Shown: positions 4,890 through 59,625 of the stretch, piece by piece
Numbering within the stretch: the stretch's first letter is position 1
How the letters are laid out: the number at the start of each line of letters is the position of its first letter
NCBI GenBank assembly: GCA_021018995.1
Contig: CM037585.1
Span: forward strand, 65,908,646 to 65,972,645
DNA from: Chloranthus sessilifolius
Taxonomy: Eukaryota; Streptophyta; Magnoliopsida; Chloranthales; Chloranthaceae
Reading direction: 5' to 3'
Length of the DNA: 64,000 bases
Translations under genes and position numbers: made by a program
Notes under the pieces: model-generated
What the model saw: the letters and a program-made list of their open reading frames with translations, nothing else
The model's database searches: none
Told to the model about the DNA's origin: nothing

Positions 4890-5450
4890 CCTATCAATTG
4901 GTCACCTAAAGACATCGATAGGAGCTAAAAGCAAAGAAAGGAAGAATTCGTGCAGTTGAAGAGGTCTTCGATAGGATCTGAAGGCAGAAGAAGGATGAAT
5001 TCGTGTGGATTAAGGAGTTCGATAGGATCTCAGAACTTATCAAGCATCTGAAAGGAAACAAGAAACCATCCTATCGAAAACCTGCCTGAAGACTCAAAGG
5101 AACCTATCGAATGGTTTCTTGAACCTATCAAGATGAGAATGCTGGAACAGAACCTATCAAGATGAGAATGCTGGAACAGAACCTATCGAAGGGTGATTGA
5201 GCCTTTCGATAAGACTAAAAGCAAACCTATCGAAATGGCAGAATTAAGAGTGAAACCTGTCGAAATGGTTTTCCAACCTGTTGAAGAGCTTCTCCAACCT
5301 ATCGAATACTCCAAACCTGTGACTGAGAAGGCTAGAACTCCAAGCGAAGATTCATCCTATCGAAACCTATCAAACGAACCTGAGAACCTAGCGAAAGGAC
5401 CAAAATGCTCAATTCCAACTTGTCGAAAGCCTCCTGAACCAGTCAAAATC
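4890..5450 (+). promoter_or_regulatory. CCTATCGAA/TTCGATAGG motif array in the B 5' LTR promoter
   Basis: Roughly twenty exact or near copies of CCTATCGAA or its complement TTCGATAGG occur in about 560 bp, in both orientations and at irregular spacing. The TATA box follows about 200 bp later. Many copies read CCTATCAA, as expected from methylated CG decay. The 3' LTR copy (15594-16130) keeps more intact CGs. Confidence 0.75.
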
Positions 5451-5657
5451 ATGTGTAGAACTTCTCAGAAATTCTGCTGAGTACACATTGTACTTTAGTG
5501 ACCCGTTGCACGCAACTCGAGGCACTTGGTGATCGACACGATGGTTCTAGAAGATGCCCTAGATAGCCCTAACCGACCCATGTGCTTTAACAGAACTCTA
5601 ACAAACTCTGATGACCTTCTAGAAGGGATTTTTGGCAGGAAAAATAAAGGAGAAAGC

Positions 5658-5665
5658 TATATATA
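5658..5665 (+). promoter_or_regulatory. TATA box, B 5' LTR
   Basis: TATATATAG lies downstream of the motif array. The matching site in the 3' LTR is at 16335-16342. Confidence 0.65.
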
Positions 5666-6151
5666 GATATCCCCAATTGCCATTGAGGGGGATCGAGATC
5701 TAAGCCAAATTCTGGAGATTAGCGCCTGCAGAGCAATTCCATTTCCCTCCTTTAGCCCAACCATGGTTGGCTAAGTCCCTTGGAGTAGCGACGAGCGAAG
5801 TTAGATCTGTAATTGGGTGAGGTTAAGAGTGCTATTATAGGTTCCTAGCTATACAGACTACAGATCTTAGAGTATTTCCATTGTTAAGTGACCTTGTTTA
5901 CAATGATAATGTCATTTTTAATGCTTTAATTAGATTTAAATTTCCTTTGGTTCCATTTGGTGATCGATCGGATTTGTGTAGAGTTGTAGATTAGCTCACC
6001 CACTTAACTGTTAGACCTCTTGGATACCATCTGATCTCCCTGGATCTAATGCTCCTGTGATTCCTTGAGTCTGTGACCTGAGAATTGTAGCATCTGTAGT
6101 GATTTTAATTATTCTAATTGAGGCTCTGGCTTTGTAGGAGATCCATAGGAT

Positions 6152-6288
6152 GGTCTGTTACCATTAAAGTTTACAGATCATAACCTTAAGATAAATCTAA
6201 GCTCAGGCCTCAATTCGATTCATTTGTTGCAATCCATGGATTCGATAAAGTCTATAGGATGGTCTATGACCATTAAAGTGGACAGATC
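6152..6288 (+). other. Duplicated LTR hairpin block (B 5' LTR)
   Basis: Two copies, 6152-6178 and 6261-6288, of GGTCTGTGACC-ATTAAAGT-GGACAGATC. TCTGT pairs with ACAGA and CC with GG, with a two-base bulge. The same block occurs twice in C LTRs and once in D and E LTRs, downstream of the TATA box. Confidence 0.55.
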
Positions 6289-6790
6289 ATAGCCTTAAAA
6301 CCAGGTGGATCCTATGATTTGGAGTGGAATTTTTACCCTGCAGCTGTGCTTATAGCCAGCGAGGGAATTGTATACTCTGAACCTCTATAGCATGATTAAT
6401 TGAATCTGATTTCATTGAAAACAAACCTCTAAGATACTCTTCTCCATTTTCTGCATTTTTACTCTTTTCCCCTACAAGATCTAAGCTCCTAAACTCGATC
6501 CAAGATAGCTTATGTTTAATTGTAGCTTAGTTTAAGTGACAACCCATTCCAAACCTCTCCCTTGTCTTTTAACTAAATTAGTAATAGCTAGGGTGCCAGA
6601 TCTGACACAGATCTGGAGATTTATTATATTTCTAAACAACCTCCCTGTGGGCATTCCCTTACTCACCATTCTTTTAAAGCTTGCTACAACAGATCCTAAA
6701 TACTTGCAGGTCTGTATGAGTGTGTCTGCCTAGTGTTATTGTTGATTTTAGACCCTCATTTGAGGGAAGGCAAACACACCAATAAGTTTT

Positions 6791-6808: not shown

Positions 6809-7109
6809 GGCAGTTTAGAAATTGATAGATCTAAGTTTTGATCATAGATCTATAGTTTTTTGTTTGATTTTTTTTACTAACTGCAATTGTAAGTTGTGTT
6901 ATTTTTGAGTAGTTTGTGTGCAGTTCATCAGATCTAAGGCTACCAGTGAGAGGAGAATAGTGTTGGAGATTGCTTTGTAGTTTGCATCCCTTTACTCCCC
7001 TGTTATTTTTCATATTTGTTGATAATTTTTGTTAGAATAGTTAGAAAATTTGGTTGATTCTGTTTATTGTGTGTTTGGATCTGTTCTACATTCGAAATCT
7101 GAGTGTTGT

Positions 7110-8990
7110 ATGTTTGGTAGGAGAACTCTGCAACCTCAGATTATTCCACTAAATCCAGAGGTTGAAAGACTTCTCAGATCTAGACCAACTACACCCACTT
7201 CTGTTGCATTTGATTCTATAGAAATGGGTGAGCAACAGCAGCCAAGAACCCTTAAGGAGTTTAATGCACCAAGGGTCTACAATTTCCCCTTCTGCATTCA
7301 ATTCCCAGCTGCTCAGGGAAACAATGAGATAAAATCATCCATCATTCAAATGCTGCCCTCATTTCATGGCCTGACCAAAGAATACCCCTATAAGCATATT
7401 GATGAGTTCTTGGGACTGTGCACTACATTTAATATCACAGGTTTGGGGGAGGAGGCCACCAGGATGAGACTCTTTCCTTTTTCATTAAAGGATAAAGCCA
7501 GGACATGGTTGTCCTTGCTTCCACCTAACAGTATTCAGTCCTGGAGTGATCTCCAATGTTAGTTTCTGGCCAAATTCTTTCCTATGTCAAAGACCAGCCA
7601 GTTGAGGAAGGGTATCATCTCCTTTACCCAAGATCCAACTGAAGACTTTCATCAATCCTCGGAGAGATTTAAGGAACTCCTCAAGAAATGCCCCCACCAT
7701 CAAATCCCTGAATGGCAATTGGTTCAAAGTTTTTATCAGGGAATTGATGCTAAAAGCAGAGATATGATAGATGCCTCCTGTGGGGGCACCTATCTCCCTA
7801 AAACTATTGAGGAGGCATGAGAGCTCTTTAATATCATTAGAGAGAACTCTATGCAAAGGGAAACCTTAGCAAGAGATCTAGAGCCTCCTAAATTGATGAA
7901 AGAGAACACCTCAAGGGGAAAGATATATGAAGTGAGTGTGCCAAGTGAGTTGGAAAGGAAAGTGGACAGCTTAACTCTAAAATTTGATAGGCTGATGGGA
8001 GCAATGCAGTCACCTGTGGCTGCTACAGTGGAGGAGGCATGTGCCATATGCCAGTCCCCTGCTCATCTCGTGGAAGAATGCCCATCTGCTGTCCAATTTC
8101 TTGATTTTATAACAGAGCATGTGGCTGCAGCTCAGTCTTATGGACAACAGCCTGCTCCTGGGTATCAATGGAGGAACCACCCCAATCTGAGGTGGAGAAA
8201 AGATGCATACCCCAGCCAGCAGCAGCAGCAACCCCTGTAGCCCATTCCCTACAAAAATGCTTAGCCCTATCGAGAAGGTTATGCCCCAAGACCTTAGTAT
8301 CAGCAACCCATGGCCCGACCTGTAGCTCCTCCTGTGCAGCAATTTGCACCCCCTCCAACTGTGAGAGCACCATCCTCTGAGGAACAAGTTTTATCTTCAC
8401 TACGGAGTTTGAACACCTTAACCTAAACTGTGCACTCTCACAATCAGAGCATAAAAAAGATAGAGGACCAACTTGGTCAGCTGTCTGATGCTCTGACTAG
8501 GAGAGAGGGAGGAAGGTTGCCTAGCCAACCACAGGACAATCCGTAAAGGCAGTTTGTAGCGGGTGAAGTTTCCTCCACTTATGAGGAAGCTAAATCTGTT
8601 ACAACTTTGAGAAGTGGCAAGTTAGTAGACAACCAAGTGGGCTGTGAGCTTGTGAGGAACTTGGAGGAAGAAAATGAAGTAATTTCTACCATCACACAAT
8701 AAAGACCACCAATGGTGGACTTGCAAGAATAATCAGCTGTGAATAAATACGATAATAAGGATCCTCAAGAAAAGAAAAAACTCAAAAAGAAAGAGACCCT
8801 ATTAGCTAAGGCTGCAATTATGGGAACAACCCCATACTTGCCATTTCCTAAGGCACTACAGGCACCTTCCCCTTTTCATAAAGGGTAAGGAAAAATTGAA
8901 GAAATGATGGAGACTTTCAAGCAAGTAAAGATCAATCTACCTTTACTTGATGCCATTAAATGAGTCCGAGTCTAAGCCATGTTTTTAAAA
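7110..8990 (+). pseudogene. Element B gag region (fossil)
   Basis: Starts MFGRRTLQPQIIPLNPEVE, the same opening as gag in E (46891) and C (27526), which fixes the start. The central Ty3/gypsy capsid-like domain (retrotransposon gag family) is clear: SSIIQMLPSFHGL, YPYKHIDEFLGLCTTFNI, LFPFSLKDKARTWL and QSFYQGIDAKSRDMIDASCG. A short zinc-knuckle-like CAICQSPAHLVEECP follows, then a glutamine- and proline-rich stretch. The product would form the particle shell around element RNA. The coding frame is broken at several points. Confidence 0.8.
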
Positions 8991-9054
8991 GAACTATGCA
9001 CCCATAAAAGACAATCCAAGATACACATCCAAGAAAATCTTTTCAGCAGAGAAA

Positions 9055-9710
9055 GTGAAACAAATTTTGTCGATTGCAACCCCAACCAAATTCCAAGACC
9101 CTGGCACCCCCACAATCCCCTACATCATTGGGGATCACATCATTGATAGAGCCTTACTAGATCTAGGAGACTGCGTAAATTTGCTTCCATATTTCCTATA
9201 TGAGAAGTTCGGCTTGGGAGAATTAAAGCCCACCCATGTTATCCTACAGCTGGCTGACAGATCTGAAAGGAAACCTGTGGGGATAATTGAGGATGTTTTG
9301 GTTAGAATTGACAAATTCTTCTATGCTGCTGACTTTTTGGTATTAGACATGGAACCAAACAAATGTGCTTCTTCCATACCTGTGATTCTAGGCAGGCCCT
9401 TTTTACCATAGCCAATGCCCACATACAATGCAGGTATGGGATCATGGAAGTGTCATTTGGAAACATGAAGGTTAAGCTGAACGTGTATAAAACTGGCTAT
9501 CAATCCTCTCCTGATGAGGCTTGTTTTTCCATTAATGCCCAAAAGAATGTGATGCATAATAATCCACATTGGTTGGTGCAGGAAAATGCTTGGTTCACAG
9601 ATGGAAAACTGCACCCAAGGAATGGACACTGGCTGAGGAAAAGATCTATAAAAAGTGCCAAGTTTGATGAGCTTGAGGAGACCATGGACCTTCCAGACCC
9701 TCCAGATTAA
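9055..9710 (+). pseudogene. Element B protease region (fossil)
   Basis: Retropepsin-type aspartic protease region. The active-site loop appears as RALLDLGDCVNLLPY, an Athila-type DLG form instead of DTG. GLGELKPTHVILQLADRS follows, and the flap/C-terminal signature is SSIPVILGRPF. In related elements the polyprotein continues into reverse transcriptase. Here the reading soon gives way to noncoding leader, and I see no RT, RNase H or integrase before ORF3. Confidence 0.78.
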
Positions 9711-10640
9711 CCCCTGCAGTCTGTATGTATCATATCTACCATACTCTATTTTTTTTTGTAGGTGTTTACTTAGTTGTTATTTGATTCTTTTTATTTCTTT
9801 TCAATAATTAAAAGAAAACAACAAAACTAGCATACTCAATACTAGATCGTCATTCTCAGTTGTCCTGAAGTAATGGGAGTTGTTCATAAGTGACTCTAAT
9901 CATGGGGCACCACATCAACAGAGCCTTCTAAGAACTGAAACTGCGAATGCCTAGAAATACAGCTTTATTTGATTTTTAGAAGTCTTCGACAGGTCAAAGC
10001 TCACCTTTCGATAGGTCACTTAGTGATTCCGGCAGGATGTTAGATGGTTTCGATAGGTAATGAACCTCTCGATAGGTAAAACTAACTTTTCGATAGGAAA
10101 ATTGGAGATTTCGATAGGTTCTAGATACCAATGGGGAACCTATCGAAATGAAGATTCAGCTGCCGTTTAAATTGATCGAAAGGATGGTTCCACCTATAGA
10201 GATCCTATCGAATCATCCCCTTTCAAAGTTTTGTCTGCTATGTTTCTGACAGGACGTATGAACCTATCGAAACCATCTAGTTCATCCTATCGGAATCGTA
10301 TTTCACCTTTTATATACCCATCGATAGGTCATTTGTGCCTCATTCCATACCTTCTGCAAACCCTAGCTCTTGTTCCTCTCGCAGTCGCCTCCCTCTTCCT
10401 ACACTAATTCCTCATAGAACCTATAGCTGTTTAGTCTGCCTTTTTGTCAGAACATTTAGCTTGCCCATTGGAGCATTTTGCCACTAATTTTGGAAAAATT
10501 GAAGCTAGGCAGTGCGATTTCAGTTAAACCCTAGGTATTGTGAGGTCAGTTGCCTTCCCCCCATCAATCTGTCGATCCTCTAATTTTTAAACCTTAAACT
10601 CTGCTTCAAGTTGGTGAAAGCTTAATTTCTGAAGAGTAAA
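9711..10640 (+). promoter_or_regulatory. ORF3 leader of element B: motif array plus TATA-like site
   Basis: Noncoding gap. At 9984-10330 there are about fifteen copies of TTCGATAGG/CCTATCGAA or near variants, the same word that fills the B LTR promoter. A TATATA site follows at 10311-10316, 325 bp before the ORF3 ATG. A T-rich run ending TTTGTAG at about 9750-9763 could instead be a splice acceptor. An internal promoter is inferred from the repeated arrangement in C, E and F. Confidence 0.6.
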
Positions 10641-13551
10641 ATGGATGAGCCGGAGGAAACCCTCATGAACATACGCCGAAGAACAACTGCTTCCACCCCC
10701 AAATCCTCCAAAAAGTCGAAGCCAGCTGAAAAACCACTTGAAGCTCACTGAAATCTCACCCAAAAAGACCCCTAAAGCTAAGAAACCCAAAGCTGTTGAG
10801 ATTTAGGAACCTAGAGTAGAAGAAACCTCAGCGAGAGCTGCCCCTCCAGTAGAACTGCCTGTGGGGTTAACTACCCCCAATGAGTTTGTAGAAAAATTGA
10901 GTCTTGTCCCTGAAACGGATTTTGATCTGGCATATTTTGCCAACATTGGGGAGTGCTAGGGGACATTGGAATATTTGAAAAAAGAAGGTATGCTACCCCA
11001 TCTTTCACCATTGAAAGAAAATGTCTATCCCAGATTAGTGAAATTGTGGTACCAGAACCTGACAAAGAAGGTGGTACCTGGAGCTGAGGATACACTGGAA
11101 ATCTCGATTGATGATTGGCAGCTGACTATCGATTGCTGAGATATTGGGATGGCTTTTGGAGTCCCATATCAATTTGACTCCACCAGAGCTGAGGGAGCAC
11201 CTACAGGGGCCACATATTGGGAAATGGCTAAACAACTTACTAATGGAATAGTGGGCTCTGGTGAATCCTTGATGAGAAGAGACCTCCATCCTACCCTCCG
11301 ACTCATTGACGCCATTCTGAGGAAAAATGTCTGTCTCTGGCCATTTGCAAGAGAGAAGGACCCCTTTAGTGGATGCACTATACTTTTGTTCAAAGGGGTA
11401 ATTTGTGAATGCACCTAAGCTGATTTTTGAGACAATGGTGGACATCAATGACAAGGTGTGGAAGACATCAATGACAAGGTGCGGAAGAGGCAAGCTTTTG
11501 CTAAAGGAGGTGGCCTGCCTTTTTGTAGACTCATCACATGTCTGCTAAGGACTGGAAAATATGTGATTACGCAATCTGAACCAATGGAGAAGCTCACCTA
11601 TAAATTGTATGGTAAGCGAGAATGGTCAACCAGCCTCACATTGATTAAGAAAGGCCAACTAGTTGGAATGGAGGTGGCTGAGAAGACAATCACTTTCGTG
11701 GCAGCAGAGATTCCTGCAGAGATACCCTTAGCCACTCCCCCACCCACCATACCTGTCCCACTACCCACACCTCCACCCACTTTGCTTTTTCCATTTGTAT
11801 CAGTCCCTCTTCAACCAAACCTCCCCCCATCCACCTATGAACCTGTTTTACCTCCACCCACCTCCCAGGTCCTCCACCCTGACATCATAGAACCTCCCAC
11901 ATTATCCGAGCTTACCCTTACCATCCCTTCTCTACCCAGTACCCAACCCATTTCTAATTCTCCTCCATCTCCAACCCCTCTGCATCCACAGGATGTGGAC
12001 CTGTTCAACACTACTGGGTTCACAGCCCTCATGACCTCAATTGTGGAGGATGTCACTCATGAGTACACTCCACGTCTTGACTCCCACACCCCACTCCTCC
12101 TCATTTTCACCATTCACCATCCTCTCCCTTCCAACATGTCCATGCACCAGCCCCTTCTACTCCCACTAGGCCTGACACCCTCACTCAAATCCTTTCCATC
12201 CTCCAATCCATTCAGTCCCAATTAACCATCAACATCGACACCCAGACCCTCATGAGCTCATGTCTCCAATCAATTCAATCCACCCTTATCCCATCCTCTT
12301 CCGCTCCTCAACCCCCTCACCTATCCCCTCCTGTTTCACCAATACCCACTCCATACCAGGCAACTGCCCAACCTGAGGAAGTGGCCGCACCCACTCTCCA
12401 CATGCTTTCCTCACCACAGGCCACTTTACCCTCATCCCTAGATTTACTAGCCTCCCCAGTAGCTAAATCCCCTATACCCTTCGCCATCCCCCCACATGTT
12501 TTCCAGGATGCCTCCACCTAAACTGATCCATGGGAGGATTTGGTTCTTTCCACCCCCTCCTCTTCATTCACTACACCCTTGTCCTTGCCTATTGTCCTTC
12601 GACAATTCATGTACATACCTCCTTACCTCACCCTCCTGTGTGCAATGAGGGACAACCCTTACATCCACAGGGATGTCTTGAGAGGTATGGCTGCACTTTG
12701 AGCTTCCATTGAGGCCCCTTATGAAGAGAGGATTGCTAACATCGAATTGGAACACCGAATTCAACTCCGCGATATCTCTCAAGGGTGGTCTGAAATCCTG
12801 ACTCGTTATGAGTCAACAAAACAAGTGGCAGTGGCTGAGAGTCTCATTGCCAAATATGAGAAGAAGAATTCCAAGCTTCTAAAGAAAAAATTAGCCAATG
12901 CTCCTGAGATCCTCAAGGCCACCAAAAAACTATTTGATGCCAACCTACTCTATGCTGCCAAACAGATTGACATATTGGAGAAAAAGGTTGCCTCCCTTAC
13001 CTCTCAACCATTCCAACCCACCCCTCTTGCCACTGCACCTCCTGCCTCGCGATCCTGCCCCCCCTACAATTCAACCTCCTCCCACCCCCCCTGTGGATGT
13101 GCACCCTCCTCCAGCCTAGGAACCTCCCCTACTCAACCTGCCCCTCAATAACCCAAAAGGGCTCCCCCCAAGAAGAAAGTCACTTCCAAAAGATCTGCCC
13201 CCTCTGCTGCCCCTGCCAAGAAGGGGAAGATGCCTGTTGCCCAGTCTAAAACAACCTCTTCCACCCAGCCCCCTATCCAACCTGTTGCCCCTTACATCTT
13301 AATGACAAAGGAAGAACAAAGGAAGAATGCTGCAGCTCTTGGATTGGACCCACTGCTCTCTTTCCTTTCGATTCAGATTTCGATTCTGTTGTTGCTGTCG
13401 ACCCCAAAGGAAAACAGCCCACTGCCCAGTCTGTGGAGGCATCAAAGGGACAGCAACCGAGGGCTAAATCTAAAGGCAAAGCTCCCTTATCCAAGGATGA
13501 GCTGAAAAACTTAGTTGACCTCTACAATTGGCCAGATGATACCTGTAAATA
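10641..13551 (+). pseudogene. Element B ORF3 region (fossil)
   Basis: The extra ORF after pol in Athila elements, often called env-like. It starts MDEPEETLMNIRRR. The conserved N-terminal domain has TTPNEFVEKL, LKENVYPRLVKLWYQNL, SIDDWQLTID, GMAFGVPYQFD, MAKQLTNGIVGSGESLMRRD and LPFCRLITCLL. I believe it belongs to the family databases call putative plant transposon protein; that needs a search. A long Pro/Ser/Thr linker follows, then CAMRDNPYIHRDVLRGMAAL, a helical lysine- and glutamate-rich stretch, and a basic tail. No signal peptide or membrane segment is visible. Several breaks. Confidence 0.75.
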
Positions 13552-15321: not shown

Positions 15322-17016
15322 TGTTAAGTGATGAAAAATGCCACTTTTCACCCTATAACCTGACCATTGATAGACCTGTGAGCACACTAATAAGCTCTTG
15401 TCAAGTGCACTTTGTAGACAACAATAAAAGAAGGTAGTAATGTAGAAAACCACTCAAGAATGCCCAAAAAGGAACTATCTCTCAGCACAGGACAAACCTA
15501 GCAATAGCACACCAGAGGGTAGCACATCACTGGACCCTTGGAGCGCGTGGCTACAACAGGGCAAGGCGAAGGAAGTGAAAACAGGCTGAGAACGTCCTAT
15601 CGATTGGTTACCTGAAGACGTCGATAGGAGCTAAAAGTAAAGAAAGGAAGAATTCGTCTAGTTGAAGAGGTCTTCGATAGGATCTGAAGGCAGAAGAAGG
15701 ATGAATTGGTGTGGATTAAGGAGTTCGATAGGATCTCAGAACCTATCGAGTAGCTGAAAGGAAAGAAGAAACCATCCTATCGAAAACCTACCTGAAGAGT
15801 CAAAGGAACCTATCGAATGGTTTCTTGACCCTATCGAGATGAGAATGTTGGAACAGAACCTATCGAAGGGTGGTTGACCCTTTCGATAAGACTGAAAGCA
15901 AACCTATCGAAATGGCTGAATGAAGAGCGGAACCTGTCGAAATGGTTTTCCAACCTGTCGAAGAGCTTCTCCAACCTGTCGAATACTCCAAACCTGTGAC
16001 TGAGAAGGCTGGAATTCCAAGCGAAGATTCATCCTATCAAAACCTATCAAACGATCCTGAGAACCTAGCGAAAGGACTAAAATGTTCGATTCCAACCTAT
16101 CGAAAGCCTCCTGAACCTATCGAAATCGTGTGCAGAACTTCTCAAAAATTCAGCTGAGCACATGTTGTACTTTAGTGACCCGCTGCACGCAACTCGAGGC
16201 ACTTGGTGACCGACACGACGGTTTCAGAAGATGCCCTAAAAAGCCCTAACGGACCCACATGCTTTAACAGAACTCTAACAAACTCTGACGACCTTCTAAA
16301 AGGAATTTATGGTGGGAAAAATAGAGGAGAAAGCTATATATAGAGATCCCCAATTGCCATTGAGGGGGATCAAGATCTGAGCCAAATTCTAGAGATTAGC
16401 GCCTGCAGAGCAATTCCATTTCCCTCCTTTAGCCCAACCATGGTTGGCTAAGTCCCTTGGTGTAGCGAGGAGCAATGTTAGATCTGTAATTAGGTGAGGT
16501 TAAGAGTGCTATTGTAGGTTCCTAGCTGCATAGACTACAGATCTGAGAGTATTTCTGTTGTAAAGTGACCTTGTTTGTAATGATAATGTTGTTTTCAATG
16601 CTTTAATTAGATTTAAATTTCCTTTGGTTCCATTTGATGATCAATCAGATTTGAGTAGAGGAATTATAGATCAGCTCACCCACTTAACTGGTAGACCTCT
16701 TGGATACCATCTGATCTCCCTGGATCTGATGCTCCTGTGATTCCTTGAGTCTGTGACCTGGGAATTGCAGCATCTGTAGTGGTTTTAATTTTTCTAATTG
16801 AGGCTCTGGTTTGTAGGAGATCCCTAGGATGGTTTGTGACCATTAAAGTGGGCAGATCATAACTTTAAGATAAATCTAAGCTCAGGCCTCAATTGGATTC
16901 ATCTGCTGCAATCCGTGGATTCAATAAAATCTATAGGATGGTCTGTGACCATTAAAGTGGACAGATCATAGCCTTAAGACCAGGTGGATCCTGCGATTTA
17001 GAGTGGAATTTATACC
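15322..17016 (+). repeat. Element B 3' LTR, first part
   Basis: Begins TGTTAAGTGATG after the polypurine tract and runs to the C insertion, ending with the ATACC duplication (17012-17016). Motif array 15594-16130, TATA box 16335-16342. It continues at 38408. Confidence 0.9.
17012..17016. repeat. Target duplication of C (left)
   Basis: ATACC, repeated at 38403-38407. Removing C and one copy restores continuity of the B LTR. Confidence 0.92.
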
Positions 17017-38402: not shown

Positions 38403-38407
38403 ATACC

Positions 38408-42197: not shown

Positions 42198-42200
42198 GTC

Positions 42201-44826: not shown

Positions 44827-45084
44827 TGTTGAGAACTGGAAAATACCATTTTTCACCCCTCAACCTGAGTCTTGATAGACCTTTGAGAGAACTAAATAAG
44901 TGTTCTAAGTGCTTGTATTTCAGCTAACAATAAAAGAGTGCTTAACAATAAAAGCAGCTTAGAAGTGCCAAAAAGATGATAATCCATGTCGATCCAAAGG
45001 AAGAAAGAGAATGGACAACCTCACTAGCTGTTAAAAGGTCTGAACCGAAGAGCCAAAGACCTGGTCTCAACCCAGAAAAGAAGT

Positions 45085-45345: not shown

Positions 45346-45695
45346 TGGAGATTCCCAGCTTTTGCAAGGGCAATTCAGTAATCTTTTTCACGCATCCAAA
45401 TGCATTTAAAAACCTAGGGACATTCCAGAGGATTCTAAGCATGATGGGAAGGCATATTCCACCCCATGTGAGCCCCCAGAGATGAAATAACTTGGCGGGA
45501 ACTTCTAGAAACTCTAACAGATTTTCAAAATGCATAAGAGAATTGATGCTTTTATCACCTGATTGGCTGAACCAGATCGAGCAATTTTGATTGGCCAAAA
45601 CAGATCTGGATCCTTGTGCTCGACTACCATTGGTCGATACAGATTTGAGCACTTCTGATTGGTTGATACACATCTGAGCAGGACTTAGGAAAAAC

Positions 45696-45703
45696 TATAA
45701 ATA
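45696..45703 (+). promoter_or_regulatory. TATA box, E 5' LTR
   Basis: TATAAATA in a context shared with D (28433) and the E 3' LTR (57879), followed by CATTTGCCCAATT and GGCATCCAGATTTTGAG, a likely transcription-start region. Confidence 0.7.
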
Positions 45704-46890: not shown

Positions 46891-48060
46891 ATGTTTGGTA
46901 GAAGGACTCTCAGCCCTGAGATTGCCCCACTGAATTTAGAAGTTGAAAGGCTATTACGAACCAAACAAACAACACAGAATTCTGTTACTATGGGTGAAGA
47001 ACCTCGACTTTTGAGGGATTACTTCGCTCCTGGTGCTTATAATTCTCCCTTTTGCATTCAATTTCCTACTGTTGAAGGAAATTAGGAGATCAAATCATCG
47101 ACCATCCAAATGCTTCCTTCCTTCCATGGGTTGAGTAAGGAAGATCCATATAAACATGTAGATGAATTCTTGGCTCTTTGCACCACATTCAACATAGCTA
47201 GACTTGGTCCAGAAGCAACCAAGCTTAGGCTCTTTCCTTTTTCATTAAAGGACAAAGCTAGAGCATGGTTATCTATGTTAGCACCAAATAGTATCACTTC
47301 TTGGAATGATTTGCAGTGTCAATTTTTAGCCAAATACTTCTCAATGTCTAAAACAAGCCAATTGAGACAAAGTATCATTTCTTTCTCACAAAACTCAACT
47401 GAAACTTTCCATGAAGCATGGGAAAGATTTAAGGAACTTTTAAGGCAATGCCCTCATCATCAAATCCTCAGATGGCAACTGGTTCAAAGCTTCTATCAAG
47501 GAATTGATCAAAAAGGCAAAAATATGGTGGATGCCTCCTGTGGAGGCACTTACCTGCAAAAAATAGTTGAGGAGGTTTGGGACTTATTTGAAGTAATTGG
47601 TGAAAACTCAACTCAACAGGAATCTCTGTCAAGAGATATTGAATATCCTGCTAGGTTGAACAATCAGCAAATCACCGAAGGAAAGATTTATGAAGTGAAT
47701 GAGTTGGAAAGAAAGATGGACAATTTAACCACAAAGTTTGATAGATTGATGGACTCACTTAAAAATCCAATGGTTGCAAGAGTAGAGGAGGCATGTCTGA
47801 TATGCCAGTCCCCTACTCATTAAATTGACCAATGTCCTGCTGCACCACAGTTCCCAGATTTAGTGGTGGAACAAGCTCATGCTGAGCAATCATTTGGACA
47901 GATGCAGTCAAATGAATATCCATGGAGAGGGCACCCCAATTTGAGGTGGAGCCAAAAGAGAGGAAGGAAAGTTACCCAGCCAACCTTTGAATAATCCCAA
48001 AGGACAATTCATGGTTTGAGAAGCTTCTATTTCACATGAAGAAGTAAAAACTGTCACAAC
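46891..48060 (+). pseudogene. Element E gag region (fossil)
   Basis: Begins MFGRRTLSPEIAPLNLEVE, 176 bp after the primer site. The capsid-like domain has IQMLPSFHGLSKEDPYKHV, DEFLALCTTFNIARLGPEA, LRLFPFSLKDKARAWL, ETFHEAWERFKELLRQCPHH and QSFYQGIDQKGKNMVDASCG. A lysine- and acid-rich stretch and a knuckle-like CLICQSPTH follow. The product would form the particle. About 70-80% of residues match gag of B and C in the core by eye. A few breaks. Confidence 0.88.
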
Positions 48061-48399
48061 TTTGAGAAGTGGAAGAATTATAAATAATGAAATGGGTACT
48101 GAAGAAGAAAAAAATGAGGAAAATGATAAATATATGCAGCAAGAGCAGCATAATGATAGCAGTGGAGGTGCTGATATACCTCAGAAAAATCAAACAAATG
48201 AAAAACAAAAAATTCAAAAAAATCCTAAAAATGCTTCCAAAGCTGTAAATGAAGGACTAGTTCCTCATTTGCAATTTCCTCATGCAATGAAATCTGTATC
48301 CCCTTTTGATAAAGGGAACACAAAAATAGATGAAATGATGGAGACTTTCAAGCAAGTGAAGATAAATCTACCTTTGCTTGAGGCAATCAAACAAATTCC

Positions 48400-49100
48400 A
48401 GCATATGCAAAAATTTTGAAAGATATTTGCACTCACAAAAGACAGTCTAGGATACAGTTATCCAAGAAGGTCTTTGCTGTGGAAAGAGTTAATCAGGTGT
48501 TATCCATTGCCACACCTCCTAAACTTCAAGATCCTAGAATCCCCATAATCCCTTGCATTATTGGGGAACATACCATTGAAAAGGCTTTATTAGATCTGGG
48601 TGCTAGTGTCAACCTACTTCCATATTCTGTATATGAGAAACTAGGTTTGGGAGAATTAAAACCCACTCATGTGGTGTTACAACTAGCGATGATCCGAGAG
48701 GAAGCCAGTTGGGATGATTGAAGATGTATTGGTGGGAGTAGATAAATTTTTCTACCCTGCTGATTTTCTAGTTTTGGACATGGAACCTACCAAAAGCAAA
48801 ACTTCCATCCCTATCATTCTGGGAAGACCATTCCTGGCTATAGCAAATGCTTGCATTCAATGCAGGTCTGGTATTATGGAAATCTCTTTTAGAAACATGA
48901 AGGTAAAATTAAATGTTTATAACGCAGTCACACAACCTCAATTCAGCTCTGAGGAATGTTTTCATGTTGATCTATTGGATGAACTGGTAGAAGGGTCTTT
49001 ACTAGCTTTCTACTGGTGTGAAGATTTCACCACAGATGCTAAAGATGCTTGGGGAAATTCGAGAAGAAAAGCGGTTGTATCTCAAAGTATGAGGAAGTAA
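48400..49100 (+). pseudogene. Element E protease region (fossil)
   Basis: KALLDLGASVNLLPYSVYEK carries the DLGAS active-site form of Athila proteases. GLGELKPTHVVLQLA and DFLVLDMEP follow, then IPIILGRPFLAIANACIQC. It matches the B protease region closely. It acts as a dimer to cut Gag-Pol. Confidence 0.88.
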
Positions 49101-49289
49101 ATGTTGTGCAAGGAACTCATAATCAATCGAAGTTTCTTTTCTTGAAACCTACTACTCTTCCCCTTCCACAAATAAGGTACCTTTGTTACCTTCTTTTCTC
49201 GCAACCACGATTTAGAATCAAGCAAATCGAAAATTTGAAATATGTGTTTTAGGAGATCATAAATCATTGCTCAATTACTTCTTCCTCCC

Positions 49290-50760
49290 TCACAAAGGAG
49301 CAAGAGGAAGAGCTGTTGATTGTTTTGAAAGAACATAGAAGGGCAATTGGCTGGACTATTGCTGATTTGGGAGGAATCAGTCCAGCTGTTTGCATGCACA
49401 AAATCCATTTGGAAGAAGATGCAAAGCCTTCAAGGGAAATGCAAAGGAGGCTAAACCCGCATATGCAAGAAGTGGTCATGAAAGAGGTTGTTAAATTGTT
49501 GGATGCAGGGGTCATTTACCCCATTTAAGATTCAGCTTGGGTGGCACCTACACAGGTGGTACCTAAGAAATCTAGGATCACTGTTGTAACCTCAGATTCT
49601 GGTGAGCTTATGTCAACCAGACAAACAACTAGGTGGAGGGTCTGTATTGATTACAGAAAATTAAATTCAATGACCAGAAAAGACCATTTCCCTCTCCCAT
49701 TCATTGATCAGATTTTAGATAAGCCAGCAGGAAAAGCTTATTACTGTTTTCTTGATGGTTACTCTGGTTACAACCAGATTCCTGTGTGCCCACAAGATCA
49801 GGAAAACACCATATTCACTTGCCCTTTTGGCACTTTTGCCTATAGGAGAATGCCATTTGGTCTTTGTAATGCCCCTGCTACCTTTCAAAGATGCATGTAT
49901 TCCATTTTCTCTAATATGATTGACCAATTTATGGAGATTTTTATGGATGATTTTTCAATCTACGGAGACAATTTTTCCCAGTGTTTACATCATCTCAAAT
50001 TAGTGTTACAGAGATGTGAAGAAACCAATCTAGTTTTGAGCTGGGAAAAGAGCCATTTCATGGTCACCCAAGGCATTGTCCTTGGCCATGTTGTTTCCCA
50101 CAAGGGCATTGAGGTGGACAGAGCAAAAATTGATTTAATTGTACATTTACCACCTCCCCAAACTGTTAAACAAATCAGAAGTTTTCTGGGACATGCTGGA
50201 TTTTACAGAAGGTTCATTAAGGACTTCAGTAAAATAACCAAGCCTCTTTGTCATTTTTTATGCCAAGATGTCCCTTTTGTTTTCAATAATGAATGCATGA
50301 AGGCATTTGAATTCTTAAAAAACTGTTTGATTTCAGCTCCAATATTGCAGTCTCCAGATTATTCACTACCTTTTGAACTGATGTGTGATGCATCAGATTA
50401 TGCTTTGGGGGCTGTCCTAAGACAGAGAAAGGAAAAGCTGCCTCATGTCATAGCTTATGCCAGTAGATCAATGATTGATGCACAGCTCAATTACACAACA
50501 ACTGAGAAGGAGCTGCTGGCAATTGTTTTTGCTTTAGAGAAATTTTGGTCATATGTCTTGGGTTCACAAATAGTGGTGTTCACTGACCACTCTGCCTTGA
50601 AATACCTTCTGTCTAAAAAGGACACCAAACCAAGATTAATCAGGTGGATTCTCCTATTACAGGAATTTGATTTACAGATCAAAGATAAAAAGGGGGTGGA
50701 GAATGTGGTGGCTGATCACCCGTCTAGAATTTTAAATGCTGAGATTGATAGGCTGCCTAT
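49290..50760 (+). pseudogene. Element E reverse transcriptase and RNase H (fossil)
   Basis: RT core: [71 protein letters not shown] and the catalytic [11 protein letters not shown]. The thumb/connection has [20 protein letters not shown]. RNase [46 protein letters not shown] and a final VVADHPSRI. These are the enzymes that copy element RNA into DNA and remove the RNA strand. This is the best-preserved domain of the window and the only RT catalytic core in it. Confidence 0.93.
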
Positions 50761-50799
50761 CAATGAATCTTTCCCTGATGAGCAACTTTTTGCTATTAG

Positions 50800-52090
50800 T
50801 GTATACACTCCTTGGTTTGCAAACATAGTCAACTTTTTGGCTACTGGGAGAATTCCTCAATATTGGAATAAAATGGATAAAGATCTTTTCTTCTCAAAGG
50901 TTAAACATTTCATCTGGGAAGATCCTTATCTGTTTAAGAGTTGTGCAGACCAAATGATAAGAAGATGTGTCCCTGACCAAGAGTTTCATAGAATACTTTC
51001 TATGTGTCATGAACAGGCCTGTGGAGGTCATTTTAGTGGAAACAAAACTGCTGCAAAGGTTTTGCAGTGTGGATTTTATTGGCCTACACTTTTCAAAGAT
51101 GCTCAAAGACTGTAAGTCTTGCCGTAATCGAAATTGGGCAAGATTTCCAAGAGAAACTCAATGCCTTTACGTATTATTTTGGTAGTTGAGTTGTTTGATG
51201 TTTGGGGGATAGACTTCATGGGTCCCTTTCCTCCTTCCAATGGGTATAATTTCATTTTAGTAGCTGTGGATTATGTATCCAAATGGATTGAAGCCACAAC
51301 CACTAAAACAAATGATCACAAAGTGGTTCTTAAATTTCTAAAGGAGCACATTTTTTCCAGGTTTGGTTTTCCCAGAGCCATTATCAGTGATGGGGGAAGC
51401 CATTTTTATAATAAACATTTTGAAACTTTATTGAAAAAATACTCTGTGACTCATAGAGTAGCTACTCCATATCATCCACAAACCAGTGGACAAGTGGAGA
51501 TTTCCAATAGAGAAATCAAACATATACTGGAAAAGACTGTGAAGAAGGACAGAAAGGATTGGTCCTTTAAGCTGAATGATGCATTGTGGGCATATAGGAC
51601 AGCCTATAAAACCCCAATTGGCATGTCCCCATTCAGGTTGGTCTATGGCAAAGCATGCCATTTACCAGTGGAGTTAGAATATAAAGCCTTTTGGGCCATT
51701 AAAACATTGAACATGGATCTAACTACTGCTGGTAATCACAGGAAACTATAACTTGCTGAGTTGGAGGAACTGAGAATGGATGCATACACAAATTCAAGAG
51801 TTTACAAAGAGAAAGTCAAAGCTTTCCATGATAAAAAATTGTTGAGAAAAGAGTTCACAGCTGGCTCTAAGGTATGGTTATTTAACTCAAAACTCAAGTT
51901 TTTTCCTGGAAAGCTGAGATCCAGATGGGAAGGGACATATACTGTCATTCAGTGGCTCATCGGCTGTTGACATCCTAGATCCAAGTAATGGAAGAATCTT
52001 GAAAGTAAATGGTCACAGGCTCAAACCATGCATTGAAAATACCCTGGAGCCTGTGCTGCCCATCTATCATCAAGAACCTCCCCAAATCTG
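50800..52090 (+). pseudogene. Element E integrase (fossil)
   Basis: Zinc-binding H2C2 region: [20 protein letters not shown] and [16 protein letters not shown]. The catalytic core has [30 protein letters not shown] and [20 protein letters not shown], giving the D, D and E of the D,D(35)E triad. The C-terminal part, ARTSYKTPIG-type, reads [20 protein letters not shown] and later FPGKLRSRWEGTYTV. No chromodomain follows. It inserts the DNA copy into the genome. Confidence 0.9.
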
Positions 52091-52803
52091 ATGGTATACA
52101 ACTGTACAATATGCTTTTAGTTCATGGTTTTTGCTTAGTTTCTTTTTCTCTGTTTTTATTCATGATTTGTCTCTTTTTGCATGGTTTAAATATGTGAAAA
52201 GTTAAGTCGTAAAGTAAAAATTATCTTTTCGCAAAGTTCAATTTACTTTTCGAAAAGACTCTGGATTTGTAACGAACTGCTCGAAAGTAAGGATTTGCTT
52301 TTCGAATAGTTGGTTCTGAAGCTATTTTCTTTTCGAAATGATGTTTCTGAAGCCATTTTATTTTCGAAAAGATGTTTCTGAAGCTATTAACTTTTCGAAT
52401 GGTACTGATGCCATTCGCAGTTGTAAAAAAGTCTATTTTGGAACTTTTCAAAAACTTAAAAAGGACTTTGCGAAATTAACTCTGAGCATATTTAAACCCT
52501 TTCGAAGTAAGGGTTTCATATTTGAAAGCTTTCTGAGAACGACCTGTTCCACAGAAACCCTATTTCTCTCTTTCCTTGCGTGATTTTAGAATCTAGCCAT
52601 ACTTTTCTTCACTTTTGTTCGATCATTTGAGTTTTCAGAGAAGGATTTTAGCTTCTAGTCTGGGGGATTTCAGCAAGCAAGCAACACGCTCAATCAAAAA
52701 CCCTAGATCTCAGTATTCTTCTGCGCATTCCCTCTGTTTATCATTTGCAAAATTTGATTTTGTGTCAGCATCTGTTGTGGGCATTTTCATACACAAATTT
52801 AGA
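52091..52803 (+). promoter_or_regulatory. ORF3 leader of element E: motif array and TATA-like site
   Basis: Noncoding gap. At 52205-52515 CTTTTCGAA, TTTTCGAAAAG, CTTTTCGCAAAG and related words repeat about a dozen times, matching the E LTR promoter array. TATTTAAA (52489-52496) lies 308 bp before the ORF3 ATG. T-rich tracts at 52114-52190 ending in TTAG could alternatively serve as splice acceptors. Confidence 0.62.
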
Positions 52804-55253
52804 ATGGGAAAAGCGAAGAAATCATTGGCTGCCATGTTCCCAAAATCCTCTGCTAAGAAAGTTAGCAAACCTACCCCTAAAGGAAAAACCAAAACTTCCG
52901 CCAAAAGAAAATTATCAATGGATAAAGCGGATAGGGTGGAGAAAGGTAAGAAAGTGAGACATGAGGAACCCATCCCCGCAGCTGTTAGTCTTGAGCCTGA
53001 GCTTCCTCCTCTGCCTATACATTTGGTACTGCCAAATCCATTCATTAAAGCTCAGAAGCTAATTCCTGAGCTGATTGTGGACGAAACTTTTTTCGTCAAC
53101 AAACCAGATTGTCTGCTATCTCTAAGATACATGAGAGTTGCCTCACTAAGCAATATCCTTACCCCTCTGCCAGAGAAAATTTACTCGCGTATGGTGAAAT
53201 TATGGTACCAAAACCTGGTAAAAGTCACTGAAAGAGATGCTGATGTCCCCACCCTGGTTATCTTTATTGATGATTGCGATCTAACTGTCACATTTGAAGA
53301 CATAGGGAATGCTTTGGGGATACCCTTCCAATTTGATCCTTCTGGTCCATTGGCTGCACTAGAAGCAGCCTCTTTTAGAGAAATGGCTACACATTTAACC
53401 CAATGAATTGTTGGCACTGGACAGTCCATCATGAGGAGAGACCTAGCCCCCCAATTTTTATTGATGGATTCCATTTTGAGGGGAAGTTTTATGTCACCGG
53501 GCACAACCAAGAGAGGAGAACACCAATTCTAAAGGCTCTCTTTCATTTTTCTAAGGGGCAGTTTTTCAATGCCCCTATGTTAATTTTTAAAGCCATGGCT
53601 GATATTAGTGCCAAGTTGAAAAAGGAGCAGAAATTAGCTGGACTCCCATTTGGTAGATTGATCACAGCCCTCCTCAGAGCCAAGTTTGACATTGATGACC
53701 AGGAGCCATTTGAAGTCATAACCCCTCACAATTTTGGGAAAAAGGCTTGGACTATAAGCCAAGCCATGCTGAAAAGACTGAGAGAAGAAGGTGAACCTGC
53801 ACCTACACCTGCAGCTGTTAATGAACCTGCCCCTGCAGCTCCCTTAGAACTAGTTTTGCCAGGTCCTGAGGTGACCAGCTCTTTCGCTGCACCAATTCTT
53901 GAAGCAGCTCTGCCAGACCCTGTGGTGACCAGCTCTTTAGCTGCACCCATTCTTTAAGAAACTATCCTCCCCATGGTGACCAGCTCTTTAGCTGCTCCAA
54001 TTCTTGAGGAAATTGGCCTTTTACCCTCCTCACCTAGTCCAGCCCCTGCCACATCACCTACCCCAGCTGTCCCATCTCCCATACCCACCATTATCCCAAT
54101 TATAGATTCCCCCTTTACACCAACCACTCCAACCATACTCACACCACCAATTTCTCCCACCAATGCCCAACTTTTGGCTGCAGACTTTATTGCCCAATCT
54201 CCTTGCACTCCTCTGCTCCAAAGCCCTTCAAATTCACTTGCTCATTCAGCCCACACACCTGAAGTATCCCATACACCTGAACCTGAGCCTTTTACTACAG
54301 AGGCTTATTCCTCATTAATGGGATCTACTTTTGAAACCGTGGGGCTTGAACCTATCCCTATACCTGACCCTCATCATTTCACTCACCTACCTACTTCTCC
54401 CTTTACAACCATTTCACCCGTTGCACCTCCACCATCCACTTCAGTTGTACCAGTCCCTGCTATGCACACCTCTCCCCCACCTGCATCTATTAACCAAATA
54501 CTTGCCTACCTCCAATCCATCCAAGCCCAACTACAACTCAACACAGAAAACCAGTCTGTGACCAATGGCCTTCTCCAAACTTTAGCCTCCACATCCTACA
54601 CAACCACCATTACCCCTGTACCTATTGTTGATGCCCATGCTACCCAAACTGAACTTGAAGTACCTCTGATTGCGTCCCCTTCACCACTCCTTACTTTCTC
54701 TGAGCAAGCCACTCAGACCGACCCTGAAGTCCTCCTTCTGGACACTTCTTCTCCCACTCCCACAGCTGGGATACCTTTGGTCCCCTATCATTCCATTCCC
54801 CTCCCCAGATTTGCCACCCTCCGAAGAGCCATGGAAGAAAATCCATATATCTGCAGAGATGTTCTAAAGGGATTAGCTGATTTACTAGCCTACATTAGAA
54901 CCCCCTATGAAAACCAAATTCGAAAATTGGAGTTATTTATGAAATTTGAAAGAGAGAAAATGAAGGACTTGCTGGGGCAAACTTTCCAGATGATTCAGAG
55001 TGAGCAGCATAAGGTGGCCATGTTGCAAGCACAGCTTGACCAGGAAAAATTGAAGACCACTAGACTTGGCAAGTACATTGGCCTCACCAAAAAGATCAAA
55101 TCAGAGGAATACACTGAGCTGCAAAATACAATCCAGGAGAAAGCTAAATCAAGTTCAGACTCCAATACTGATTCTAGTTCTGACTCTGACAGTGACTCCA
55201 GTTCTGAGCCCATTGAACCAACTTATGATACAGATTTTGACCCCAGTTATTAA
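52804..55253 (+). pseudogene. Element E ORF3 region (fossil)
   Basis: Start at MGKAKKSLAAMFPKSSAKKV, chosen over an upstream in-frame ATG (52615) because all four ORF3 copies open with a short basic stretch. The N-terminal domain has PLPEKIYSRMVKLWYQNLVK, FIDDCDLTVTFEDIGNALGI, FREMATHLTQ, RRTPILKALFHFSKGQFF and GLPFGRLITALLR. A linker with repeats of VTSSFAAPILE/VTSSLAAPILE and a long Pro/Ser/Thr stretch follows. Then come LRRAMEENPYICRDVLKGLA, a long charged helix likely to form a coiled coil, and a Ser/Asp tail. No membrane segment. Few breaks. Confidence 0.8.
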
Positions 55254-56934: not shown

Positions 56935-56955
56935 GTTGCATATGCTAAATGCAAC
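56935..56955 (+). other. Stem-loop upstream of the E 3' LTR
   Basis: GTTGCAT-ATGCTAA-ATGCAAC, a perfect 7 bp stem. Its second pair is U-A where B has G-C, a compensated change. Confidence 0.68.
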
Positions 56956-57038
56956 TGTGCTCCCTACAAAAGTGGCTGTTTACTTTGTTTTTAATTTTGC
57001 CTTTGCTCAGGGACTAGCAAAGCTTAGGTTTCGGGGTG

Positions 57039-58864
57039 TGTTGAGAACTGGAAAATACCATTTTTCACCCCTCAACCTGAGTCTTGATAGACCTTTGAGA
57101 GAACTAAATAAGTGTTCTAAGTGCTTCTGTTTCAGCTAACAATAAAAGACAGGCTTAACCATAAAAGTAGCTTAAAAGTGCCAAAAAGATGATAATCCAT
57201 GTCAATCCAAAGGAAGGAAGAGAAGGGACAACCTCACTAGCTGTTAAAAGGTCTGAACTGAAGAGGCAAAGACCTGGTCTCAACCCAGAAAATAAGTATG
57301 GAGCAATTCGAACAGAAAAATGCACTACAGAGTACTTTTGAAGAACTGAAGCTTAGAAAGAACACGAACTCGAAAAGAACTAAAAACTCCAGGCTTAGCT
57401 TTCGAAGAGCACCTGAACTCTTTGAAGAGATAATTGACCTTTTCAAAAAGAAGAAGAACATTGCGAAAAGAGATTCAGGAGTTACAACACCTTGCGAAAA
57501 GTCCCCTAAGCTATGCGAAAAGGAATTCTGGAGATTCCCAGCTTTTGCAAGGGCAATTCAGTAATCTTTTTCACGTGTCCCAATGCATTTAAAAACCTAG
57601 GGACATTCCAGAGGATTCTAAGCATGATGCGAAGGCATATTCCACCCCATGTGAGCACCCAGAGATGAAATAACTTGGCGAGAACTTTTAGAAACTCTAA
57701 CAGACTTTCAAAATGCATAACAGAATTGATGCTTTTGTCACCTGATTGGCTAAACCAGATCGAGCAATTCTGATTGGCCAGAACAGATCTGGATCCTTCT
57801 GCTCGACTACCATTGGTCGATACAGATTTGAGCACTTCTGATTGGTTGATACACATCTGAGCTGGACTTAGGGAAAACTATAAATTGACGAACCATTTGC
57901 CTAATTTGGGCATCCAGATTTTGAGTTTCATTCCTATTCCCCCATTTCCAAATCAGATAGTTTGTCTGAAATCCCTGTAATAGCCTCACTTTTACTTGCA
58001 ATTGAGAGCTGTGAGATACTTCTGTAATTCAAAAGAGAGTTGTATGCAAGACTACAAATCTGAGAGCCGTTTAAGCTGTGCTCTATAATTGTAATGGTGA
58101 ATTTGAAAAGGTTGCTGTAAACCGTACATTCTCCATTGGACTCATGTTAAGGGTTCCCTCTGATCGCCTTATTGCATTAGACTCCTTTAGATTTACTATT
58201 TTTCATGCAATTTCCCTTGATTCATTAATCCTGTGAGAATTAGTGTTTGTAACCTAATCTCTCACGGCATTTGTAGTGATGTTTCTTGTTCTAAATTAAG
58301 GATTTGGATTAAAGACTATTGGATGGTTTATGGCCATTAAAGTGGATAGACCATAGCCATAAGCTTAAATCTAATCCTTGAATTAGATTTATTTCTCTTA
58401 CATCTGCGCTTGTAGCCAGATAAAGATTGGATCGTCTCTCAGTTGAGCTGCAGTCATTCTCATTAGATATCAAGGACCAAATCAAAGTTAGATATTACTT
58501 CTCCATTTTTATAAGTTTACCTCAAAATTCCCCCAACTCGGATCTGGATCATTTAGTTTAACTTTTACTTTTATCATTTAGTTAATGTGACAAATTCAAC
58601 CTCCCATCTTATGTGCTGTCTAGATAAGATAAGAGGCCAGATCTGGAGGTTTATCTTGCATTTTAGAAAAGTTCTCTGTGGACGATCTTTTACTCACTAA
58701 CATTTAAAACTTGCTACAATTGGCCCTGATCTTACAGGCTAATTCACTTCTCTCTGTGTTGATATTTCTTTACTCTTTTTAATATTCTAGATTCATTATA
58801 ACTTAGCAGTTGCAAACCTGTTTTCAAAACACAAATAAATCAATCACACTTAGAAGTAACAACA
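57039..58864 (+). repeat. Element E 3' LTR
   Basis: 1826 bp, paired with 44827-46690. TATA box variant at 57879-57886. Followed by CCCGT (58865-58869). Confidence 0.95.
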
Positions 58865-59625
58865 CCCGTCGAGAGGTTAGAAGTGAAGTTCGACAGGTAC
58901 TGAAGGTGTTCATGTGAAATTCGACAGGTTCTGTAATTGCTATGGGAAGTGAGATGAATTGATAGGTACTAAATCAAGGTGTTTCTTGCAATTTTGACAG
59001 TTACGAATCGCCGAGAGGTTGAAAAACCTCTCGGAGCCTTAATGCCTGAATATTTGTAACCTGTCGAAAGGTTGGGTGAACCTCTCGAATTGTAATTTCC
59101 GTAGCCTATGAACCTGTCGAAGGTTTGAACAACCTCTCGAAACCTTCACTCTGAGAGTCTTCCAAATTCATATGGTTTTAACTGTTCGACATGATGAGTC
59201 AACTTGTCGAATTCTTCTTTACATCCTATCAAAATAGTGCTTTGCTTGCTTTAAATATATCGACAGGTTCATTTCATCCATTCAACACCTTGAGCTAATG
59301 TCTGGTTCCTCCTATGCCCGAGTTTCCATTTTCTTCTTTCTTCTCCACCTCACTGGTTCCCGTTCCAAGTACCTTGCCATTATTCCAGTTGCATCAACTT
59401 TGCAAGGACGACATTTTACACCTGGTTTGAGCCGATTTGATTCTGTGTACTGCAAGTTTCGAGAAGCCCTAGGTTTTTGAGTAAGTTCTTCTTCACCTTC
59501 ATCCTTGTGATTTCTCAGCATTATAATTCTATATTTTTGGAGGATTTACAGTGTGTGCGATTAATTAATTGAGGGAGGAAGATTGATGTGTTTATTGAGA
59601 AGCATTGGGAGGATTTTGAGTCCCA
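58865..59625 (+). promoter_or_regulatory. ORF3 leader of element F: motif array and TATA-like site
   Basis: At 58868-59275 there are about fifteen copies of TTCGACAGG, CCTGTCGAA, CCTCTCGAA and CGAGAGGTT, a variant of the B word. TTTAAATATAT (59250-59260) lies about 370 bp before the ORF3 ATG. E inserted at the first motif of this array. Confidence 0.6.

Follow-up and report, generated by a model that had tools for sequence, protein, structure and literature searches.

The 64,000-nucleotide window analyzed here (C2:65,908,646-65,972,645, from Chloranthus sessilifolius) is a nest of plant Ty3 long terminal repeat (LTR) retrotransposons, which we denote by letters. Our subject is a set of short CG-containing words that are packed into arrays both in the LTRs of these elements and in the leader in front of their extra 3' open reading frame (ORF), ORF3 (see Table 1 for coordinates). 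Element E is complete in layout: LTR, gag, reverse transcriptase (RT)-RNase H, integrase, leader, ORF3, LTR. Its order of Retrotrans_gag, RVT_1, RT_RNaseH, Integrase_H2C2, ORF3 and 3' LTR is the layout of Athila-like Ty3 elements with a 3' ORF, and from the RT and the ORF layout we take the host elements to belong to the Athila lineage. B and C have gag and ORF3 with no RT or integrase match in between, which suggests that they are non-autonomous and would need pol from other elements. The leader of F lies directly 3' of an E LTR, and F's own 3' LTR lies beyond the window end. The DNA sampled comprises 120 kb on C2 (including the window), 58.5 kb on C1, 50 kb on C3 and B loci on C1; genome-wide word counts refer to 2.17 Gb in 32 contigs.

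The words are concentrated at the two sites. In the window, all 23 exact matches to the B word (TTCGATAGG/CCTATCGAA) fall in the 5' LTR (8), the 3' LTR (8) and the ORF3 leader (7) of B. The E word CTTTTCGAA has nine exact matches on both strands, six in the E leader, two in the 5' LTR of E and one in a related D LTR; the 3' LTR of E has none, and 10 within one mismatch. We calculated an enrichment matrix of six words in 19 regions, with 200 dinucleotide shuffles each. The counts of the B, E and F words in their own leaders and own in-window LTRs are reached by no shuffle, and the C LTRs are clear as well (6-10 matches within one mismatch; 0/200 shuffles), while counts in the bodies of gag, pol and ORF3 do not rise above background. 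The initial annotation had claimed that B, C and E each pack one word into both LTRs and leader, and that F has its words in front of ORF3. This is borne out for B, for F and for E (in the 3' LTR by near matches); for C it holds in the LTRs and is weak in the leader. A few matches cross between families. The B and F words are one base apart, so that each marks the other's arrays at one mismatch; the B word has three near matches in one D LTR, and the C word two in the F leader (0/200 shuffles).

Words were set without a prior look at the arrays in four analyses only (the de novo 9-mers, the generic-pattern clusters, the exact 8-mer matrix and the array scan of the C3 sample); all other words were chosen after the arrays had been seen. 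De novo counting of 9-mers in the leaders of B, E and F puts the words themselves on top, with 14, 11 and 12 matches against shuffle maxima of 4, 8 and 5 (20 shuffles). These three words may be read as variants of one pattern, C[CT]TN[TG]CGAA, and the words of related families differ by small steps (CCTATCGAA, CCTGTCGAA, CTTTTCGAA). There are 17 generic-word clusters in the 120 kb. By our placing, leaders account for five of them (B, E, F, G, H) and LTRs for 12; of these 12, paired LTRs hold 11 and the single LTR of F holds one. Genome-wide, a pair of B words with at most 30 bases between them is found 11,534 times (5,722 forward and 5,812 reverse), compared with 19 times (13 and 6) for the control pattern read backwards.

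Does each leader agree with its own LTR? Exact 8-mers with at least three copies in both leader and LTR are found for B (7), F (6) and K (8), all in the element's own LTR, and for the A, C, E and H leaders none is found in the own LTR. Only one of the 42 off-diagonal cells of this matrix is non-zero (one word common to the E leader and the LTR of its sister H). When leaders are compared with 11 LTRs by the cosine of CG-containing 7-mers, the best match of B, C, F, H and K is their own LTR; for E the own LTR comes second, behind that of its sister H, and for A third. The earlier statement that the word is shared within and different between families thus holds strictly for B, F and K and with mismatches for E and H, is weak for C, and fails for A.

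Elements from outside the window extend the comparison. The F LTR, unseen when the claim on F was made, contains three copies of CCTGTCGAA, one of CCTCTCGAA and numerous near forms, followed by a TATA box (L019:750-1180); these are the words of the F leader, as predicted. Element H in the 120 kb, whose two LTRs (83179-85017 and 95710-97537, counted in window positions) are 93% identical, carries the words of E in its leader as well as in its LTR. On C1, where the 50-kb sample was not chosen on its motifs, yet comes from a part with many listed B words, element K is of the chromodomain type, with a chromodomain-like end of its integrase, and distant from the Athila-like elements. Its word TTGATCGATCAA, allowing at most two mismatches, occurs 14 times in the leader of its ORF3-family gene and 22 times in each LTR, mostly 20-21 bp apart. 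In J, an array is present in the ORF3 leader. The chromodomain labels of J, K, M and the C3 elements, like the ORF3 tail of M, come from reading the DNA and not from a domain search. M (L029, about 6500-9700) has an LTR array of CGCTCGAGCG at 22-bp steps and, by reading, only the tail of an ORF3-like gene. In another LTR-like stretch, L035:5251-6300, TCGATTAA words are as dense as 17 per 450 bp, and most of them follow each other at 19-21 bp.

The leader arrays of B, C, E and F run into or precede a TATA-like stretch, followed by a AAACCCTA-type stretch (CCCTAGG in F) and then about 300 bases to the ORF3 start. In the LTRs of B, E and F, a TATA box lies approximately 230-350 bp downstream of the array. 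The TATA boxes after the arrays at both places point to two promoters with one word. Many of the words can be written around a central CpG: CTTTTC/GAAAAG in E, CCT(G/C)TC/GA in F, CCTATC/GAA in B, TTGATC/GATCAA in K and CGCTC/GAGCG in M. The B word is asymmetric outside this core, and the A and C words have CGCG cores. The observed/expected ratio of CpG is 0.63-1.08 in the leaders versus 0.34 over the 120 kb. The B motif is sharp: in 257 sites the information lies within approximately 11 bases, and the flanks hold at most 0.6 bits.

We are interested in the spacing of the words, which the initial annotation had called irregular. This is not so: neighbor distances are mostly 20-22, 30-33, 42 and 51-53 bp, with few at a single helical turn. 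When 13 arrays are pooled, 109 of the 130 distances deviate by at most 2 bp from a multiple of 10.5 (a fraction of about 0.4 is expected by chance), 66 of them at two turns; this count keeps the poorly phased sites that come from a palindrome forced on the word of the L035 stretch. When the tandem repeats of the window are excluded, 97 of 118 distances are phased. The vector strength is 0.67 (0.64 without tandem repeats), compared with 0.28 (0.30) in the best of 20,000 random sets. Seven of ten arrays are phased singly (p < 0.05), and phasing recurs in families without common spacer sequence. Irregularity therefore fails as an argument against tandem slippage. The conclusion itself stands on other grounds, since simple slippage is excluded by the poorly conserved flanks together with the phasing outside the tandem repeats.

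Among the first 100 genome places listed for the B pair, the spacing is 20-23 bp in 41, 29-34 bp in 52, 10-13 bp in five and 25 bp in two, and never 14-19, 24, 26-28 or 35-39 bp. B sites face each other, with 148 convergent and 17 divergent pairs in 17 arrays (none of 10,000 permutations is as high). Ten extra B loci (L009-L018) were picked by the B word itself and are kin copies, whose spacings are not independent; one of them, L018, has no match to the ORF3 or gag queries. The permutations ignore the shared ancestry of arrays, and because kin copies are not independent the probabilities for phasing and orientation are too small.

Could a leader array be a recent copy of LTR sequence? We masked the words with three flanking bases and scored the leader-LTR alignments against shuffles. 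After masking, the scores fall inside the shuffle range for B (20), E (18), H (18) and K (22), so these arrays are not recent copies, and the recombination that had been named as a possible refutation is excluded in four of five families. Copying still stands slightly for F (39 versus a shuffle maximum of 31) and for the pair D/G discussed below. In these four families both sites retain the words while no common spacers are detected, which is best explained by one protein binding both sites. Taken with the TATA boxes after both arrays, the helical phasing and the sharp motif of approximately 11 bases, this makes the earlier suggestion well supported, as judged from sequence, that the arrays are protein-binding sites common to two promoters of one family.

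What might the protein be? An array precedes all eight ORF3s inspected (A, B, C, E, F, H, J, K; that of C is thin), and a single ORF3 probe from J finds six ORF3s of the 120 kb as well as that of K, linking both lineages. ORF3 diverges faster than gag: E and H are 94% identical in gag versus 72-82% in the N-terminal part of ORF3, and E and B 69% versus 42%. By reading, the ORF3 N-terminus is basic and resembles a nuclear localization signal. ORF3 also has a conserved domain that is weakly similar to Transposase_32. A C-terminal helix of approximately 100 residues is predicted, with confidence for approximately 70. Pfam scans of ORF3 cover pieces of broken ORFs only. A Transposase_32 match appears in one of four ORF3 pieces (E-value 0.061), three K pieces match no family, and DUF1985/DUF287 have no match among the results of the pieces scanned; a PDB sequence search with an ORF3 profile gives no match. 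The basic N-terminus, the fast divergence, the homology across lineages and the retention in elements without a pol match make ORF3 the leading candidate, and the pattern is consistent with a fast-evolving regulator as the reader of the arrays.

We propose, with a probability of roughly 0.55, that the arrays are the sites of one nuclear protein, probably ORF3, which acts at both promoters and opens its own family only. Protein binding, ORF3 as the protein that binds, and an activating or anti-silencing effect are what we infer here from the arrangement of the DNA. Each array would be the binding-site set of one sequence-specific nuclear protein, in front of the LTR promoter (gag-pol) and of the internal ORF3 promoter, and the reader would most likely be ORF3's own product. 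The ORF3 protein would bind a word of approximately 12 bp, often palindromic and with a central CpG, at sites that share one face of the double helix and are separated by at least two full turns; neighboring ORF3 proteins would be joined through their long C-terminal helix. In this way ORF3 might keep its promoter accessible, together with the LTRs of its family, by activation, by protection from DNA methylation, or both. Action would be restricted to its own family, and if the specificity of ORF3 changes, the sites at both promoters would have to change along. It is tempting to go further and hypothesize, at somewhat less than even odds, that two distant Ty3 lineages share a portable module. 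It would consist of a DNA-binding protein of the ORF3 family, the promoter of that protein, and a CpG-centered, often palindromic word that is phased both at this promoter and in the LTR. Word and protein would co-diversify into private channels, and the so-called env-like ORF of Athila-type elements would be a sequence-specific anti-silencing regulator that possibly reads methylation.

A related system is VANC of the Arabidopsis VANDAL Mutator-like transposons. The reports cited in this and the next paragraph were available in part, and the comparisons are limited to those parts. VANC21 of VANDAL21 binds YAGTATTAY, a nine-base word that is dense in non-coding regions and is replaced by another word in related families, and VANC causes loss of methylation (PMC5735166). 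The likeness lies in a family-specific short word multiplied in the non-coding DNA of the element, and also in an element-encoded sequence-specific protein, fast change of protein and target, and the importance of site density (PMC5735166, PMC10398659, PMC12859917). Coevolution of VANC structure and target is mentioned in a meeting report as unpublished work (PMC12859917). There are clear differences. VANC belongs to Mutator-like DNA transposons, whereas the hosts here are LTR retrotransposons; VANC has DUF1985/DUF287, for which the ORF3 pieces scanned give no match; and VANC21 sites have a single orientation, often in tandem repeats, whereas the sites here contain CpG, keep helical phase, occur at two promoters and, in B, converge. 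By analogy, the arrays and ORF3 would work like VANC without ORF3 being a VANC member.

Among retrotransposons, the sunflower Athila 14 ORF(+) is like the elements here in having an extra 3' ORF, partly Transposase_32-like and with a predicted nuclear signal; the available part of that report describes no cis word array or DNA target (PMC11728184). Grande gene23 has its own promoter (PMC7264820). The accessory ORFs of Grande (gene23) and Retand, unlike ORF3, are antisense, and no LTR-shared word is described for them in the parts available (PMC7264820, PMC11963269). A sunflower clade, also of the Athila lineage, has reduced LTR methylation, and its authors ask about element-encoded factors, with no motif or protein named in the part available (PMC12844716). 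In the literature covered, which leaves out preprints and the majority of subscription journals, we found no published word common to LTR and ORF3 promoter. What this analysis adds is the phasing by helical turns, the outcome of the tests on F and K, and the result of masking the words. What the extra 3' ORFs do in LTR retrotransposons of plants is treated as an open question in the literature (PMC7264820, PMC11728184, PMC12844716), and arrays of one word at the two promoters suggest a function for ORF3 that can be tested. If true, the proposal would carry the principle of self-recognition known from VANC over to LTR retrotransposons, provide many protein-target pairs from nature, and could explain how related elements avoid cross-activation and why an Athila clade loses LTR methylation. 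The phasing and the central CpG lead to concrete predictions on cooperativity and methylation sensitivity.

Several observations weigh against the proposed role of ORF3. The C leader is thin, with two exact CTCGCGCAG (0/200 shuffles), two near CCTCGCGAA (1/200) and no de novo 9-mer above shuffles. The words of the A leader (TATCGCGAG) are nearer to the C LTRs (cosine 0.21-0.28) than to its own (0.11-0.12), and in B and F a weak excess in the own LTR is seen for 7-mers without CG too. Whole LTRs are mostly not CpG-rich (0.32-0.51; D 0.87). The 5' LTR of B, one C LTR and the A leader fail the phasing test singly; with CGCG centers, the A leader is the only one of six A or C arrays that is phased, and two A LTR arrays, the C leader and both C LTRs fail. 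No LTR of J was found in the 8.5 kb sampled for it. D LTR 27849-28033 and the leader of the neighboring element G, L019:5455-5639, are 88% identical over approximately 189 bp, so arrays can pass between the two promoters. None of the eight ORF3s is intact, so part of their divergence comes from neutral decay. AlphaFold2 gives the N-terminal piece of E ORF3 a mean pLDDT (predicted local distance difference test) of 40, and the best Transposase_32 (PF20167) scores, 20.8 bits in J and 18.7 in a piece of E, are below the gathering cut-off of 45. Finally, LTR-like stretches near RT and integrase matches on C3 (L030-L034, C3:70.00-70.05 Mb) have CG-palindrome arrays of TCGATCGATCGA or TTCGATCGATCGAA, some at 21-bp steps, and in that 50-kb sample no ORF3 homologue was detected beside them. 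These arrays imply another reader there, or an ORF3 that lies elsewhere or has decayed.

The C3 arrays are what one might see if host transcription or silencing factors read the words instead of ORF3, another factor for each family and the same one at both promoters. Phased palindromic sites upstream of a TATA box would be equally expected. However, host factors would not explain why two distant lineages have a second array precisely at ORF3. An array precedes each of the eight ORF3s inspected, and the words shift stepwise between related families beside a fast-diverging ORF3; we consider such factors unlikely readers, though a substantial possibility. LTR-like stretches without ORF3 would also be covered if another element protein (capsid, integrase or its chromodomain) read the arrays, for example in targeting new copies or marking its own DNA. 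Such a reader is quite improbable: arrays and ORF3 persist in B and C, where RT and integrase matches are missing, and gag is conserved at the identities given above though the B and E words differ.

The arrays might have no binding function and be by-products of tandem duplication and LTR-leader recombination, a view to which the 20-31 bp units detected inside several arrays by Tandem Repeats Finder, the D/G likeness and the masked score of F would lend themselves. It is disfavored in B, E, H and K by the lack of homology after masking, and more generally by the poor flanks of the 257 B sites, by phasing that persists outside the window's tandem repeats, and by the maintenance of CpG words although the genome is CpG-depleted, so that we regard it as very improbable. 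ORF3 might also bind the words and repress, as a negative feedback on copy number rather than activation or anti-silencing. The leader sites do adjoin the TATA-like stretch (B 10320, E 52498, F 59260), but the LTR arrays of B, E and F lie 230-350 bp upstream of TATA, as is often the case for activators, and in the part of the VANC report available the precedent de-represses (PMC5735166); repression is very improbable beside the opening role proposed for ORF3.

Table 1. Features of the window, in window positions, and the LTRs of element K
Feature	Position	Strand	Remarks
B 5' LTR	4631..6351 (limits approximate)	+	array CCTATCGAA/TTCGATAGG ~4914-5428; TATA box 5656-5672
B gag and protease region	7041..9708	+	no RT or integrase match between region and leader
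B ORF3 leader array	9985..10330	+	7 exact, 11 within one mismatch; convergent; TATA-like 10308-10319
B ORF3, broken	10641..13502	+	start ATG 10641
B 3' LTR	15337..17038	+	same array as B 5' LTR, 8 exact
C LTR (element 3')	17014..19507	-	words CCTCGCGA/CTGCGCGA ~18650-19310
C ORF3, N-terminal part and conserved domain, broken	24056..25169	-	start ATG 25169
C ORF3 leader	25440..25700	-	few CTCGCGCAG/CCTCGCG sites; TATA-like 25458-25471
C gag	26264-27379		retained, without RT or integrase match
D LTR	27582..29451	+	E-like words
Second D LTR	33780..35593	+	E-like words
C LTR (element 5')	35908..38402	-	
E 5' LTR	44827..46690	+	CTTTTCGAAAAG-type array 45085-45345; TATA box 45695-45707
E gag, protease, RT-RNase H, integrase	47086..51748	+	
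E ORF3 leader array	52205..52515	+	CTTTTCGAAAAG, spacing 21/31/52; TATA-like 52487-52499
E ORF3, frame-broken	52804..55250	+	basic N-terminus, weakly Transposase_32-like domain, Pro/Ser/Thr-rich linker, long C-terminal helix
E 3' LTR	57039..58864	+	10 E-word matches within one mismatch
F ORF3 leader array	58868..59275	+	CCTGTCGAA/CCTCTCGAA; TATA-like 59250-59263
F ORF3, broken	59626..62217	+	start ATG 59626
K LTRs	28334-30715 and 38397-40782 of joined L025-L029		L027-L029 = C1:84.02-84.05 Mb

Two further features lie in the window. The internal region of element D contains an AT-rich complex tandem repeat with periods of 20-115 (30411-30999). At 38821-41723, open pieces on the minus strand match gag-asp protease and probably belong to another LTR element, without a link to the arrays.

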